NCBI RefSeq assembly: GCF_002216065.1
Contig: NZ_CP022282.1
Span: forward strand, 3,038,001 to 3,102,000
Reading direction: 5' to 3'
Origin: Chryseobacterium sp. T16E-39
GTDB taxonomy: Bacteria > Bacteroidota > Bacteroidia > Flavobacteriales > Weeksellaceae
DNA length: 64,000 bases
A program made the position numbers and the translations under genes. This document shows, in pieces, positions 9,425 through 37,365 of this stretch. The notes under the pieces are model-generated. The model did not search any database. It worked only from the letters and a program-made list of their open reading frames with translations, and was not told where the DNA came from. Numbering within the stretch: the stretch's first letter is position 1; each line of letters opens with the position of its first letter.

Positions 9425-11989
9425 ATGCTTTTTGTTTATGCTAAATGCTTGATGAAATACCTAATGTTAATTAATAACCCCAAATACCATTACCTCTATC
9501 TTTTTCTATTATTTTCCAGCATTGTCTGTGCCCAAAATACAGCAAGTGGTAAAATTGTTGATGCAAAAACCAACAAAGAAATTACAGGGGTTGATGTTTT
9601 CATCAATGATAGTAATAATCCTCTATTAACAACAACTACAGGAAACTTTAGTGTTCAGTCGGACAGTATTATTTATAAATTAAAGTTCTTAAGAAAGAGT
9701 TATGCATTACAAAGCGTGGATGTTACCCCGGAAAATGCGAACAATATATTTGTAAAACTCTCTAAGGAGAAAGTAGAAAGCATTCAGGAAGTTGTTATTC
9801 ATAACGAAAAAACAAAATTCAAGAACAAGAAAGAAAATCCGGCTTATGCAATTATGCAGGAAGTATGGAAACGGAAGAGAAATAATGGTTTAGATAAATT
9901 TGATACGTATACCTATAAGGAATACGAGAAGATTCAATTTGATGCGAATAATCTGGACAGCACGTTCATGAAAAGAAAGATCTTTAACAAACTGGATTTC
10001 ATTTTTGACTATGCCGACTCAACGGCCAGTGGTAAAATGGCTCTCCCAATCTTTCTCAATGAGGCTGTTTATAAAAATTATGGTGAAAACAAACCCGGCA
10101 AAAAAACAAAAAAACTCCTCGTAGCCCAGAAAACTTCAGGGTTTCAGGATAATCAGATTGTTACTTTAACCGCAAAAAATCTATACCGCGACATCAATAT
10201 CTATGATAATACCCTGAATTATTTTGATATTGGATTTCCAAGTCCGGTAGGAAGTGACGGCTTTAGTACTTATGATTATAACTTAATTGATACCATCTCC
10301 ATGCGTGGAGAGAATGCTTATAAAATAAGGTACCAGCCTAAAAGAACAGAAATCCTGGCTTTTCAGGGTTACCTTTATATCGACACTGATACATATGCCG
10401 TTTTAGGTGCGACATTAAAGTCAACCCAAAAGATGAACGTTAACTTTGTCAATGGAATTTCCACAGAACTGGAATATGATAATCCTGACGAAAATACATT
10501 CTTGCCTAAAAAGTTTGTAACAGTTATAGAAATGACTCCTTTTTCGAAAAAGAAAACATCAAAAAGTATTATTGCTAAAAGAACTGTCGATTATTCTGAG
10601 TACGAATTTAATAAACCTCTCGAAGCTTCAGTTTTTAAACGAAGCGAAGAGGAGTACGATAACAAGTTTGTAGATAAGGATGATTCTTATTGGGTGAAAG
10701 CAAGACCTGATTCATTATCCAAATCAGAACAAGGAGTTTATGACATGCTTGAGAAGCTTCAGCAGGTTCCAAAATTCAACCGGATTGTTAAATTATACGA
10801 AACCCTTGGGTCGGGTTATTACAATGTTACAAAAGGGATTGATTTAGGTCCTATTTTTTCAGTATACGGAGTAAATGAGGTTGAAGGAGACAGAATAAGA
10901 TTGGGAGCAAGAAGCTATTTCTCTATGAATGACCCATGGAGAGTACAGTTCTATACTGCTTACGGATTTAAAGATCAGAAATTCAAATACGGTGTAGAAG
11001 CGAAATACATGTTCAACAGGGTAAACCGATTCACGATTGGAGCCGGAACGAGAAGGGATGTTATGCAGCTTGGAGTTCAGTTAACAACGGATGATGGAAT
11101 TATGTCGCGAACATTTGCCTCTTCCACTGTATTTGCAAGAGGAGACAATGCCTCTCTAAGTTCTTTAAACCAAACCAACATTTTTGCTTCTATAGAGCCA
11201 TGGAAAAACTTCCAGGTCAGAGTGGACGGAACCATGCAAAGTATTAAATCTGCTAATCCCACGGGATTTAACCTGATGTACTACCGAGATGGAGATCTAA
11301 GAAAAACAGTGAATGATTCCCACGTAACGGTCAGCTTAATCGCAAGACCGGGAGCAAAATTTTCACAAACCGGAGTTGACAGACACGAACATGGGACATT
11401 AGCACCAACTATTGTTTTAAAGTATACAAGAGGTCTTGAAGGACTTTTTAATGCAGATTTTAATTATAATAAATTACAGTTTCTTTTCTATAAACCGGTC
11501 CTGATTGGAAGCTGGGGAAAGACTTTAATTAATTTTGAGGCCGGAAAAAACTTCAACACTGTTCCATTGGCCCTACAGAATGTAATTCCTGGAAACCAAT
11601 CTTACAGTCTGGTCGGAAATACTTTTGCACAGCTTAATTACTATGAATTTGTAGCAGATACCTATACAACGCTTCATTTAGAACATCATTTCAATGGTAA
11701 GATTCTTTCCTATATTCCTTTAATTAAAAAACTTAAATTAAGAGAAATTGCATTCATAAGGGGCGCATACGGAACATTAAGCAATGCTTCTAAAGCGATC
11801 AATGTAGACAGTTCTAAATACTCTGCTCCAAGTGATCATATTTATTATGAATACGGATTTGGTATTGAAAATATAGGATTTGGAAATCTTAGAATCTTCA
11901 GAGTCGATTTTAACTGGAGGGGAAATTACCTGAACAGACCCGATATTTCTACATTTGGAGTAAAGGCTGGATTCCAGGTTGGTTTTTAA
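9425..11989 (+). CDS. DUF5686-like outer-membrane protein with carboxypeptidase-regulatory-like domain
   Basis: An 854-residue protein. After a signal peptide ending near SIVCAQ comes a beta-sandwich of the CarboxypepD_reg-like type (NTASGKIVDAKTNKEITGVDVFIND). A middle domain follows with NPAYAIMQEVWKRKRNNGLD and DTYTYKEYEK, characteristic of the DUF5686 family. The C-terminal half is a long beta-barrel rich in aromatic strands and ends in GVKAGFQVGF. It is predicted to sit in the outer membrane; the role is unknown. The start is uncertain: in-frame ATGs at 9452 and 9464 give a shorter, more normal signal peptide. It is monocistronic with a -7 box upstream. Confidence 0.8.
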   Translation: MLFVYAKCLMKYLMLINNPKYHYLYLFLLFSSIVCAQNTASGKIVDAKTNKEITGVDVFINDSNNPLLTTTTGNFSVQSDSIIYKLKFLRKSYALQSVDVTPENANNIFVKLSKEKVESIQEVVIHNEKTKFKNKKENPAYAIMQEVWKRKRNNGLDKFDTYTYKEYEKIQFDANNLDSTFMKRKIFNKLDFIFDYADSTASGKMALPIFLNEAVYKNYGENKPGKKTKKLLVAQKTSGFQDNQIVTLTAKNLYRDINIYDNTLNYFDIGFPSPVGSDGFSTYDYNLIDTISMRGENAYKIRYQPKRTEILAFQGYLYIDTDTYAVLGATLKSTQKMNVNFVNGISTELEYDNPDENTFLPKKFVTVIEMTPFSKKKTSKSIIAKRTVDYSEYEFNKPLEASVFKRSEEEYDNKFVDKDDSYWVKARPDSLSKSEQGVYDMLEKLQQVPKFNRIVKLYETLGSGYYNVTKGIDLGPIFSVYGVNEVEGDRIRLGARSYFSMNDPWRVQFYTAYGFKDQKFKYGVEAKYMFNRVNRFTIGAGTRRDVMQLGVQLTTDDGIMSRTFASSTVFARGDNASLSSLNQTNIFASIEPWKNFQVRVDGTMQSIKSANPTGFNLMYYRDGDLRKTVNDSHVTVSLIARPGAKFSQTGVDRHEHGTLAPTIVLKYTRGLEGLFNADFNYNKLQFLFYKPVLIGSWGKTLINFEAGKNFNTVPLALQNVIPGNQSYSLVGNTFAQLNYYEFVADTYTTLHLEHHFNGKILSYIPLIKKLKLREIAFIRGAYGTLSNASKAINVDSSKYSAPSDHIYYEYGFGIENIGFGNLRIFRVDFNWRGNYLNRPDISTFGVKAGFQVGF

Positions 11990-12021
11990 AACACTCATTA
12001 ATAATTACATTTAATAAGATA

Positions 12022-12045
12022 AAAGCCTCAATAATATTGAGGCTT
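12022..12045. terminator. Bidirectional terminator between the DUF5686-like gene and the peptide cassette
   Basis: A perfect stem (AAGCCTCAATA... TTGAGGCTT) lies between convergent genes, with T-rich flanks on both strands. Confidence 0.75.
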
Positions 12046-12070
12046 CATATTTTTAATTGCTGGAATCAGA

Positions 12071-12238
12071 TTAGCATGAACATGGATCTATATCAAGAAT
12101 CATATTAACGCAACGAAGCTGTTGTTGAGGAGTCCATGCGCACCATGCTATACACGTTGTCCCTGGTGAAGGGCAAATCATTAAACCTCCATCTATTGAT
12201 TTCAATTCTCTTTTTGTAAGTCTTTTTAAATTTTTCAT
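12071..12238 (-). CDS. GG-leader six-cysteine bacteriocin-like peptide 1
   Basis: A 55-residue peptide starting MKNLKRLTKRELKSIDGG. The leader (MKNLK-x-L-x-x-x-ELKSI-x-GG) is a double-glycine leader of the type cut by C39 peptidase-containing exporters. The mature part has six cysteines and the pattern CPxP, C, WCxWT, Q, CxN, PCxC. The two neighbouring genes share all of these positions. It has its own leader copy and a terminator hairpin before it, so it is probably transcribed separately. No exporter or modification enzyme is nearby. Antimicrobial activity is an inference; signalling is equally possible. Confidence 0.8.
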   Translation of the reverse strand: MKNLKRLTKRELKSIDGGLMICPSPGTTCIAWCAWTPQQQLRCVNMILDIDPCSC

Positions 12239-12295
12239 AATACATTAGTTTTAATTTATCGCCTACTCTATATGCTTTTCGGCTCTCGCATGGTT
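12239..12295 (-). promoter_or_regulatory. Conserved leader copy A of the peptide cassette
   Basis: The block upstream of peptide 1 contains GCCGAAAAGCATATAGAGTA and AATTAAAACTA. It matches the block at 12737-12792 almost base for base, although the flanking DNA differs. It has no TAnnTTTG box, so it is either an unusual promoter or an RNA leader. Confidence 0.5.
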
Positions 12296-12324
12296 TTAGC
12301 TCATATATAAAATGACGGAAAATA

Positions 12325-12352
12325 TAAAAAGCCCCAACGATGCTGAGGCCTA
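12325..12352 (-). terminator. Terminator between peptide 2 and peptide 1
   Basis: On the minus strand, AGGCCTCA pairs with TTGGGGCTT around the loop GCATCG, and TTT follows. It lies 18 bp after the peptide 2 stop. Confidence 0.65.
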
Positions 12353-12369
12353 TTATTTTTACATTCAAA

Positions 12370-12537
12370 TTAGCAAGGGCAAGGATCTGGATCCATAACC
12401 ATATTAGGACAACGGAGTCTTTGCTGCGGTGTCCATGAGCACCATTCCGAGCAAGTAGTTGCAGGTGCAGGACATGCCATAGCACCTCCATCGATTGATT
12501 TCAATTCTCTTTTTGTAAGTCTTTTTAGATTTTTCAT
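12370..12537 (-). CDS. GG-leader six-cysteine bacteriocin-like peptide 2
   Basis: A 55-residue peptide beginning MKNLKRLTKRELKSIDGG, with a leader identical to that of peptide 1. The mature part starts AMACPAPATTCSEWCSWTPQ and ends PDPCPC. Six cysteines align with peptides 1 and 3. It lies 34 bp downstream of peptide 3 without an intervening terminator, so the two are probably one transcript. It is a tandem duplicate that has diverged mainly in the mature region, as expected for secreted peptides. A 128-residue frame overlapping it is not conserved and was discarded. Confidence 0.8.
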   Translation of the reverse strand: MKNLKRLTKRELKSIDGGAMACPAPATTCSEWCSWTPQQRLRCPNMVMDPDPCPC

Positions 12538-12571
12538 AAAAATAGATTTTTTAATTTGCTACAATTTATAA

Positions 12572-12736
12572 TTAACAGTCACATGGTGCATCGATAACAG
12601 AATTGATACAGTGAGCTTTTTGCCAGGCTGTCCATGAGCACCATTCCGCACACCAAGAAGCAGGAACCGGACATCTTTCAGCACCACCAGCTATTGATTT
12701 CAATTCTCCTTTTTTTAATTTTTTTAAATTTTTCAT
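12572..12736 (-). CDS. GG-leader six-cysteine bacteriocin-like peptide 3
   Basis: A 54-residue peptide beginning MKNLKKLKKGELKSIAGG. It is the most divergent of the three: the mature part is AERCPVPASWCAEWCSWTAW and ends APCDC. All six cysteines and the WCxWT core are kept. It is the first gene of the tandem set on the minus strand and carries leader copy B directly upstream. No C39 transporter, HlyD-like protein or immunity gene is adjacent, so export must occur in trans. Confidence 0.8.
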   Translation of the reverse strand: MKNLKKLKKGELKSIAGGAERCPVPASWCAEWCSWTAWQKAHCINSVIDAPCDC

Positions 12737-12792
12737 AATACATAGTTTTAATTTGTTGCCTACTCTATTTGCTTTTCGGCTACCGCAATGAT
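12737..12792 (-). promoter_or_regulatory. Conserved leader copy B of the peptide cassette
   Basis: This is the second copy of the block found at 12239-12295. It shares the GCCGAAAAGCA, ATAGAGTAGGC and AATTAAAACTA segments and has a similar distance to the start codon. Confidence 0.5.
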
Positions 12793-12872
12793 CTATTAAT
12801 TAAACGGTAACAATATAAAAATATTTCACAAAATATGGAATACCATCAAAAATTTTTACTTACATCAACAAA

Positions 12873-12903
12873 AAAAAGCCTCAACAAATGTTGAGGCTTT
12901 TAA
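12873..12903 (-). terminator. Terminator of rplU-rpmA
   Basis: A perfect AAAAGCCTCAACA/TGTTGAGGCTTTT stem with an eight-base T run on the minus strand lies 21 bp after the rpmA stop. Confidence 0.85.
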
Positions 12904-12923
12904 TTTTTTATGAAACGCTTATA

Positions 12924-13181
12924 TTACGCGTTCGGTTCTACAGATACAAAAGATCTGTTATTTGCTTTCTTTCTGAAAACTACTTTACCGTCTACCAATG
13001 CAAACAAAGTGTGGTCTTTACCCATTCCCACGTTTTCACCTGGGTGATGTTGAGTACCTCTTTGTCTGATAATAATATTACCGGCAATAGCTTCTTGTCC
13101 ACCGAAAATCTTTACACCTAATCTCTTAGAGTGAGATTCTCTACCGTTTTTGGAACTACCGACTCCTTTCTTGTGTGCCAT
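12924..13181 (-). CDS. rpmA: 50S ribosomal protein L27
   Basis: An 85-residue protein with the invariant L27 start [20 protein letters not shown], the [13 protein letters not shown] motif and the terminal FRKK segment. L27 sits near the peptidyl-transferase centre of the large subunit. There is no N-terminal propeptide of the Firmicutes type. It lies 18 bp downstream of rplU, the usual order in bacteria. Confidence 0.98.
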
Positions 13182-13960: not shown

Positions 13961-14842
13961 ATGAAAAATTTTAAATTCTGCTTTTTAGCAGGAGCTGTTG
14001 CTGTGTTATCCTTAACAGCATGTAATGACGACAAAATGGAAGACAATGTCTTACCTAATTCCCAAACAGAAAACGCTAAAATTGAACAACCCGGAGAACT
14101 GCAAAAAAGCTGTTCCTATGTAGATCAATACTGGAGTTCTACAGCCGTTCTTCTTACGGGTCTGCAAAATTCTGCCGACACTAACTTCATGAATGGACAA
14201 ATGACAAAAATCGCAAGCATGTGGGGAAGAAGCAATCCTACGCTAAGATTTGTAAATGACCCATCCAATTTCAACTCAACCTACAATGCAATTTCCTACT
14301 CTAACGGAAAAATCTATTATGGATATGCAATCTACGCAGATGCTAAAAATAAAGGGGGAGACATTGTAAACGCAATGATTTTAGCTCATGAATACGGGCA
14401 TCAGTTGCAATATGCTTTCAACCTACCTTCAGTGAATGAATCTACTGCCAGACCAAACGAACTGGAGGCAGATGGTTTTGCAGGATATTACCTGAGAAGA
14501 CCAAATGGGTATAATAAAACCCAATTCTCTGAAATTGCTGCTGCTTACGAGTTTGCACAAAGCATTGGGGATTACCAAACATCAAGTGCTAATCACCACG
14601 GAACTCCGCCACAAAGAAGATCTGCTGTTCGTTTAGGTTTCTTATTAGGACAGTATAGTCTTTCTGCAGCCGACTTCGATTATAACTTCTTCTACTATTA
14701 TCAAGGTGTTCTAAACGGAACATACAAAATGGGTAAAAACTCAAGAAATCCTGAAATTGATGCTTACATGAGTCAATATATGGATGAGTTGAGAAAAATC
14801 CAGACCGGAGAAATCTCTGCTGAAGAATACAGAAAACTGTAA
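13961..14842 (+). CDS. Zinc metallopeptidase lipoprotein (HEYGH)
   Basis: A 293-residue lipoprotein with the SPII signal LSLTAC (Cys21). The catalytic motif is LAHEYGHQLQ, with HEYGH at residues 143-147. NELEADGFAGYY about 20 residues later offers Glu169 as the likely third zinc ligand. This HExxH plus ELEAD arrangement is that of the predicted neutral zinc metallopeptidases related to YpfJ. The enzyme is probably anchored in the outer membrane or periplasm; its substrate is unknown. It is a single gene with a hairpin terminator. Confidence 0.8.
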   Translation: MKNFKFCFLAGAVAVLSLTACNDDKMEDNVLPNSQTENAKIEQPGELQKSCSYVDQYWSSTAVLLTGLQNSADTNFMNGQMTKIASMWGRSNPTLRFVNDPSNFNSTYNAISYSNGKIYYGYAIYADAKNKGGDIVNAMILAHEYGHQLQYAFNLPSVNESTARPNELEADGFAGYYLRRPNGYNKTQFSEIAAAYEFAQSIGDYQTSSANHHGTPPQRRSAVRLGFLLGQYSLSAADFDYNFFYYYQGVLNGTYKMGKNSRNPEIDAYMSQYMDELRKIQTGEISAEEYRKL

Positions 14843-37209: not shown

Positions 37210-37365
37210 ATGAAAAACTTAAAAAAACTAAACAATAGTCAATTAAAGACTATTGCTGGAGCGGGAATCAAACCAGTAGAAGATTTCTGTATGTATTATT
37301 GCGATGGGGTTGTTATTTGTGCAACTTGCAGCGATGATTTCAAATGTCCGGATAATACAATGTAG
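37210..37365 (+). CDS. GG-leader-type bacteriocin-like peptide, singleton
   Basis: A 51-residue peptide beginning MKNLKKLNNSQLKTIAGAG. The leader matches the cassette at 12 kb (MKNLKKL, QLKTIAG), but the cleavage site reads Gly-Ala rather than Gly-Gly. The mature part, IKPVEDFCMYYCDGVVICAT, has five cysteines in a different order from the other three peptides. It has its own -7-like box (TACTTTCG at 37178) and a terminator. No exporter or immunity gene is next to it. Function is unknown; antimicrobial or signalling use is inferred. Confidence 0.75.
   Translation: MKNLKKLNNSQLKTIAGAGIKPVEDFCMYYCDGVVICATCSDDFKCPDNTM

Follow-up and report, generated by a model that had tools for sequence, protein, structure and literature searches.

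We analysed a stretch of 64,000 nucleotides (nt) from Chryseobacterium sp. T16E-39 (NZ_CP022282.1, positions 3,038,001 to 3,102,000; hereafter the window), in which three small genes, W1 to W3, encode short peptides with a double-glycine (GG) leader and a cysteine-rich core. The earlier note on this DNA had placed three minus-strand genes of 54-55 amino acids (aa) between positions 12071 and 12736, and complete ATG frames lie exactly there: W3 (12572..12736, 54 aa), W2 (12370..12537, 55 aa) and W1 (12071..12238, 55 aa). The features that it had described are also present in all three frames, each peptide having a GG leader (MKNLKRLTKRELKSIDGG in two peptides and MKNLKKLKKGELKSIAGG in one), followed by a core with six cysteines and the sequence WCxWT.

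Reading along the minus strand, W3 is followed after 34 nt by W2, then by a terminator-like hairpin (12351-12329), by W1 and by another such hairpin (12046-12022). A pattern scan of positions 11950-12950 on both strands found 5 terminator-like hairpins, compared with 0.5 expected. Because these pattern matches follow W2 and W1, the trio is probably expressed as two transcripts, W3-W2 and W1 on its own. Both predicted transcripts open with a copy of the DUF805b RNA (Rfam RF02914), one at 12757..12789 on the minus strand (44.0 bits), 20 nt before the start codon of W3, and one at 12260..12292 on the minus strand (36.3 bits), 21 nt before that of W1; the gathering score of the family is 35.6 bits.

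The trio occupies a slot with flanks that are conserved in synteny, the minus-strand genes rpmA (ribosomal protein L27, 12924..13181) and rplU (ribosomal protein L21, 13200..13778) on one side and a plus-strand DUF5686 gene (PF18939, 9425..11989) on the other. Together with an unannotated 293-aa protein, these are the nameable neighbours of the trio, and the statement of the earlier note that no maturation or immunity gene is adjacent holds among them, although a small unrecognised gene could escape such a survey. The 293-aa protein (13961-14842, plus strand) is lipoprotein-like and has no Pfam match; it contains an HEYGH motif, which we take to be zinc-binding-like.

A known leader precedes a core family with six cysteines

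The leaders of the trio match the NCBIfam model NF047798 (leader_Chryseo) with 30.2, 30.1 and 28.4 bits, above its cut-off of 23.5 bits. In family searches of the trio, the core is named by neither NCBIfam nor Pfam. The CCPGW family putative bacteriocin (NF047792) was rejected, since it scores 19.5-19.7 bits where 80 are needed and aligns to the first 22-30 residues only, as was Pfam PF10439 (Bacteriocin_IIc), which scores 16.8, 17.0 and 12.7 bits against a gathering cut-off of 27.1.

In an alignment of 36 relatives, residues C22, C29, W32, C33, Q39, C43 and C53 are invariant, and paralogues without the last CxC gain an extra earlier cysteine, such that the total is still six. Indeed, all 83 distinct core-family members from named genomes have six cysteines, with a search pattern that requires only three. 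The exceptions that escape the pattern are a four-cysteine copy (L051, L140, L164) and a seven-cysteine copy (L062, L145). Comparison of the W cores with solved structures by sequence gave no convincing match (best E 0.27), and a Foldseek search of the PDB with a model of a W peptide gave none, the model being weak. The W cores have no adjacent cysteines and thus do not have the C..C..CC..C..C spacing of inhibitor cystine knot peptides.

The core family is inherited in one slot and is under purifying selection

Relatives of the core, for which the earlier note had suggested a search of related genomes, are present in 58 of the 98 genomes of the genus (counted by best E-values, full matches having E ≤ 3.4e-15 and leader-type matches E ≥ 1.7e-10). 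Among the rows listed, genomes carry 1-4 copies, some with internal stops. A single-sequence search of 59 genomes outside the genus gave no match; in the searches made, the core family was found confined to one genus. The slot flanks (rpmA/rplU and/or the DUF5686 gene) are present at all 30 of the top-ranked loci from the first search for relatives. Of 79 named loci detected with the family alignment, 55 lie in the rpmA-DUF5686 slot and 24 elsewhere, and the search pattern finds core-family peptides at 53 of the 55 slot loci and at none of the 24 others. Chryseobacterium is named in the record titles of 78 of the 79 loci; the remaining locus comes from a Weeksellaceae metagenome-assembled genome and has no core.

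The ratio of non-synonymous to synonymous substitution rates (dN/dS) ranges from 0.02 to 0.24 in eight groups of sequences with the same cysteine spacing, and is lower for the core than for the leader in three of the eight. In the largest group, with 20 sequences and 34 pairs, the leader has a dN/dS of 0.15 and the core without its cysteines one of 0.24; for the group of W3, with 11 sequences and 8 pairs, the values are 0.12 and 0.23. Since groups were set by identical cysteine positions, they hold no non-synonymous cysteine change by construction. By these ratios, leader and core are both under purifying selection, and positive selection on the cores is ruled out. The earlier note had made its reading depend on conservation of the three frames together with constraint at the level of codons, and both are found.

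DUF805b precedes the slot peptides and most likely forms a pseudoknot

DUF805b is reported to have been described by Weinberg and colleagues in 2017; our literature search found no described role for it. It occurs in 97 of the 98 genus genomes at E ≤ 1e-5, with 1-21 copies each, and in none of 14 control genomes, and is not confined to the genus, since it occurs in 83 of 296 genomes of the phylum, six of which are of the genus. We searched 40 of the 79 named loci, all in the slot (L188-L226 were left out), and found 33 copies at 30 of them (13 copies in 12 of 20 loci and 20 copies in 18 of 20). Nearly all of these (31) lie ahead of a WCxW peptide, one heads a decayed four-cysteine copy and one has no frame after it; the spacing to the start codon is 19-22 nt.

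Among 90 high-scoring copies in the genus (the 30 retrieved by the search itself, the 40 ranked next and 20 lower in the list), 51 head leader peptides, 20 among the first 30 and 31 among the other 60, at a spacing of 16-27 nt. Leader peptides were called with a profile built from 34 leaders of the T16E-39 genome, and one of the 31 calls is a 37-aa frame without cysteine. By inspection of their sequences, the other genes headed by DUF805b encode tail-collar-like, caspase-like, small secreted and other GG proteins; tail-collar-like proteins of ∼180 aa follow the RNA directly at eight loci (L294, L296, L300, L301, L320, L322, L329 and L330).

The T16E-39 genome has three DUF805b copies above threshold, two of them at the trio. 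The third (4368131-4368163; L236:6132-6164, minus strand) lies 23 nt before the gene of a protein of 536 aa, for which Pfam and NCBIfam gave no match. Weaker matches in this genome were set aside because all 14 controls match at that limit. With just three copies above threshold, DUF805b as a common regulator of all the leader peptides of this genome is ruled out.

The consensus line of the Rfam family has one hairpin. We found that in all rows of an alignment of 52 distinct sequences, a loop triplet, xCC, can pair with a 3′ triplet, GGx′, giving a second helix (P2). (The 52 are what is left of 65 sequences after removal of 13 repeats; L268, in which the RNA is cut at the locus edge, had been excluded before.) The first P2 pair is GC in 31 sequences, UA in 16, CG in 4 and AU in 1, and the third is CG in 49, UG in 2 and UA in 1. 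Covariation scored over two pairs of P1 and three of P2 amounts to 0.350, compared with 0.071 for shuffles, of which 0 of 500 reached it, and with at most 0.036 when slid; P2 was first noticed in some of the same 52 sequences, and this test is thus not independent. A further 60 copies come closer to an independent test: 50 have Watson-Crick triplets (UCC/GGA 39, GCC/GGC 7, CCC/GGG 2, UCU/AGA 2), 7 have one U-G pair (UCU/GGA 4, UCC/GGG 3), 2 have a mismatch (ACC/GGG) and 1 is off-pattern. Because the second helix covaries and the further copies pair, DUF805b most likely forms, by comparative sequence evidence, a small pseudoknot of the H type immediately before the start codon.

The trio belongs to a large set of peptides that share one leader

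A search of the T16E-39 genome with the leader model gave 60 matches at E ≤ 10, of which 31 are above the curated cut-off. We kept 57 short frames, removing 3 matches that lie in longer unrelated frames; the trio makes up 3 of the 57. At the same loose limit 8 of the 14 control genomes give leader matches, none of them above the cut-off, while at E ≤ 0.05 there are 47 matches in this genome and none in the controls. Thus, the weaker members of the set rest on their GG and cysteine pattern, since the controls also match at the loose limit. At E ≤ 0.05, 92 of the 98 genus genomes carry the leader, up to 65 times each, and 91 of them have it above the cut-off; elsewhere in the phylum it is found in 16 of 290 genomes at E ≤ 0.01, with 1-5 each (22 of 296 phylum genomes, less six of the genus). 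Our literature searches on Chryseobacterium GG peptides and on VKOR proteins with C39 bacteriocins gave no description of this set among the papers listed.

The 57 cores mostly hold six cysteines (35 cores) or four (17), with eight in 3 and five in 2, such that 55 of the 57 counts are even. Similarly, among 259 distinct cores that carry three or more cysteines, taken from all loci collected to that point, 252 have an even count, although many of them are orthologues, so that independent cases are fewer; cores with less than three cysteines, leaders longer than 26 residues and leaders with fewer than four lysines or arginines had been excluded. Even counts over such varied cores indicate disulfides. 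One of the two odd counts belongs to another NF047798 leader peptide in the window (37210-37365, plus strand, 26.4 bits), which is 51 aa long and has a five-cysteine core. Sister cores elsewhere in the genome (positions 86256, 4197614, 4197829, 4564810, 4564986 and 4565174; L073, L086, L087) have the C..C..CC..C..C spacing, which we take to be reminiscent of knottins.

A candidate exporter and a putative disulfide oxidase at 3.87 Mb accompany the leader across the genus

The earlier note had proposed that the rest of the genome be searched for an ABC exporter with a C39 peptidase; there are four, none of them in the window, which rules out that the trio forms an operon complete with an exporter. 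Three of the exporters (L079, L080, L081) adjoin a weakly JmjC-like protein that falls short of the Pfam threshold, a lantibiotic dehydratase and a radical SAM protein. At the fourth locus (3.87 Mb; L078), a six-cysteine GG peptide is encoded between the C39 ABC and HlyD genes, and a 501-residue VKOR-thioredoxin fusion lies upstream, which consists of a cysteine-free C39-like domain, a VKOR domain and a DsbA domain. In the fetched stretches around the same exporter locus in genomes G041 and G074 there are ten and four leader peptides, respectively, some of them above the cut-off. Identity across the genus is mostly 88-94% for the C39 ABC protein and mostly 60-73% for the oxidase fusion.

Across the same 98 genomes, the fusion has no orthologue in G011, G057, G060, G079 and G053 (the last has only a 27% paralogue), and all five genomes are without the leader, which is found in 92 of the 93 fusion-positive genomes, the exception being G149. 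Scored as fusion-positive were G067 (51% identity), G147 (46%, with a match limited to residues 5-372), and G038 and G063, in which the copy is broken. The exporter orthologue is absent from G011, G057, G060 and G079, and G063, a poor assembly, has a weaker match only. We regard the 3.87 Mb locus as the likely exporter locus for the leader peptides. In G053 (L129:9350-9613, minus strand), where the exporter is 93% identical, a different GG-leader six-cysteine peptide and a distant VKOR paralogue lie nearby, and G029, which has both exporter and oxidase, carries a clear member of the trio family (L237, C24:3402-3566).

Discussion

We consider it probable, though far from certain, that W1-W3 give rise to peptides that are secreted, rich in disulfides and bacteriocin-like. 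In the mechanism that we propose, the DUF805b knot beside the ribosome-binding region would control whether the peptides are translated, or would act early in their transcription. The C39 ABC exporter encoded at 3.87 Mb, which is highly conserved, would then recognise the leader and cut after the GG, and this exporter, its HlyD adaptor and an outer-membrane channel would deliver the core to the outside, where mature peptides of 36-37 residues would act on neighbouring cells; the C39-like/VKOR/DsbA protein would oxidise the core to form three disulfides. The parts of this mechanism differ in strength. It is very likely that DUF805b regulates the trio, and there is an equally strong case, from the cysteine patterns, for three disulfides per core; export by the 3.87 Mb locus is likely, at slightly lower confidence. 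That the peptides are antibacterial is tentative, with a little less than an even chance of being right. Antagonism of other bacteria is the most likely role by analogy with bacteroidetocins, and is plausible because those are GG-leader peptides of Bacteroidetes that are less active when a thiol oxidoreductase is missing, and no immunity protein was found for them. The interpretation in the earlier note stands in part, with respect to C39-type GG leaders and, probably, a three-disulfide core; of the roles that it offered, antimicrobial or signalling, either may apply.

A number of observations weigh against this interpretation. Expression, cleavage, disulfides and activity of the trio are predictions, and the structure model of the W peptide is weak (predicted local distance difference test score 76, predicted template modelling score 0.45). 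The presumed exporter locus is ∼0.8 Mb from the trio; its resident six-cysteine peptide scores 17.7 bits against the leader cut-off of 23.5 and has no NCBIfam family at 1e-3. Co-occurrence of leader with fusion and exporter, treated as simple draws, has probabilities of 8.8e-8 and 4.2e-6, but related genomes are not independent and these values are uncorrected for shared ancestry. Moreover, G029 was scored as leader-positive on one match (E 0.008) below the cut-off; G053 and G149 retain the exporter yet show no NF047798 leader, and no leader peptide was found near the G149 exporter on a contig of 5.1 kb. A count of helices in the oxidase model puts the C39-like and DsbA domains on the same side, which, if the model is right, fits badly with leader binding inside the cell. 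With respect to the RNA, 16 and 13 of 500 shuffles did as well as the real alignment on two of the five measures (both-side pair changes and further pair types). Among the 57 leader peptides of T16E-39 only the trio has DUF805b above threshold, and 39 of the 90 genus copies are followed by something else, such that the RNA cannot be called specific to these peptides. Finally, slot inheritance and purifying selection are unusual for a toxin in an arms race.

This last point leads to signalling within the species, in which the cores would be pheromones read by kin. Such a role would explain why the slot is fixed (core-family peptides at 53 of 55 named slot loci), why dN/dS stays at 0.02-0.24 and why the immediate neighbours of the trio include no recognised immunity gene; signalling agrees with the purifying selection and with inheritance in one slot about as well as warfare does. 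We nonetheless consider signalling unlikely, as no sensor or receptor gene is recognised among those neighbours either, 57 cores per genome are many for private signals, and neighbouring copies within one slot differ in their cores. Instead, the cores might be disulfide-knotted inhibitors that block proteases or deter eukaryotic predators. The presumed knottin-like spacing of the sister cores at 86256, 4197614 and 4564810 and the even cysteine counts point that way, but the W cores themselves do not have this spacing and no structure match was found by sequence (none convincing, best E 0.27) or by the weak model, which leaves inhibitors a somewhat poorer prospect.

A third alternative replaces the disulfides, the peptides being thioether-bridged or other ribosomally synthesized and post-translationally modified peptides (RiPPs) made by the RiPP enzymes of this genome. 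The dehydratase, radical SAM and weakly JmjC-like proteins beside the other three C39 exporters would provide such enzymes, but none of them is near the trio, the disulfide oxidase tracks the leader across genomes in a co-occurrence test that covered the oxidase and exporter of the 3.87 Mb locus, and even cysteine counts fit disulfides; we give this explanation only a small chance. It is more improbable still that the trio is a relic, part of an old leader-peptide family retained by drift and mostly unexpressed. Decay does occur (the four-cysteine copy at L051/L140/L164, the seven-cysteine copy at L062/L145 and in-frame stops elsewhere), but purifying selection acts on leader and core, the DUF805b spacing is held at 19-22 nt, and 83 of 83 members have six cysteines.

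If secreted, disulfide-rich peptides are indeed the products, Chryseobacterium would hold libraries of tens of such peptides that use one route of export and oxidation, and a whole library could be surveyed by removing one exporter or one oxidase. DUF805b would gain a coherent set of downstream genes as well as a specific second helix. A broader proposal, which we regard as speculative and rather less likely to be right than wrong, is that DUF805b is a pseudoknot cis-regulator, possibly a riboswitch, of a regulon for surface interaction in Chryseobacterium, in which dozens of disulfide peptides share one leader, one nearly invariant exporter and an oxidase with a catalytically dead C39 domain that reads the leader, the trio being the RNA-gated members in this genome. 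In that case a regulon could be assigned to an orphan RNA family and a mechanism for reading substrates to a class of oxidases, which would suggest that a protease-dead C39 domain can act as the reader of a disulfide oxidase.

Comparison with known systems

The leader is ordinary; the core family, the RNA heads and the link to exporter and oxidase are, within the searches made, new. NF047798, which is named ‘bacteriocin-like protein’, covers only the 18-residue leader and is silent on core, exporter, oxidase and RNA. The trio shares with class II bacteriocins in general a double-glycine leader and the presence of C39 ABC exporters in the genome; with respect to PF10439, it is alike at the level of the leader only, and below the Pfam cut-off.

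The bacteroidetocins (class IIf) are also short, cysteine-containing Bacteroidetes peptides with a GG leader, and have an ABC exporter with a double-glycine peptidase; no immunity gene was found for them and deletion of a thiol oxidoreductase attenuates activity (PMC6671954). Their leaders are 15-16 aa long, compared with 18 aa here, and bacteroidetocins A and B have mature parts of 42 aa with four cysteines, compared with six in the trio cores (PMC6671954). The layout differs as well: the bacteroidetocin peptide gene is described as lying beside genes for ABC and transmembrane proteins and, mostly, an oxidoreductase (PMC6671954), whereas the likely exporter of the trio is 0.8 Mb away, the window having no C39 gene and exporter and oxidase lying together at 3.87 Mb. 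With a comparison at the level of leader, cysteine number and gene layout, which differs, and with selection and slot inheritance that also fit signalling, we do not file the trio as bacteriocins.

The prochlorosins have many cores that share one machine (PMC10783134), as we propose for the leader peptides. In their case the shared part is an enzyme of the ProcM group that modifies the peptides (PMC10783134), whereas here it would be an exporter with a disulfide oxidase. Both 5′ elements of the trio score as members of Rfam RF02914, whose consensus is one hairpin, while in the sequences compared here a second helix covaries and the genes downstream of the two trio copies encode leader peptides.
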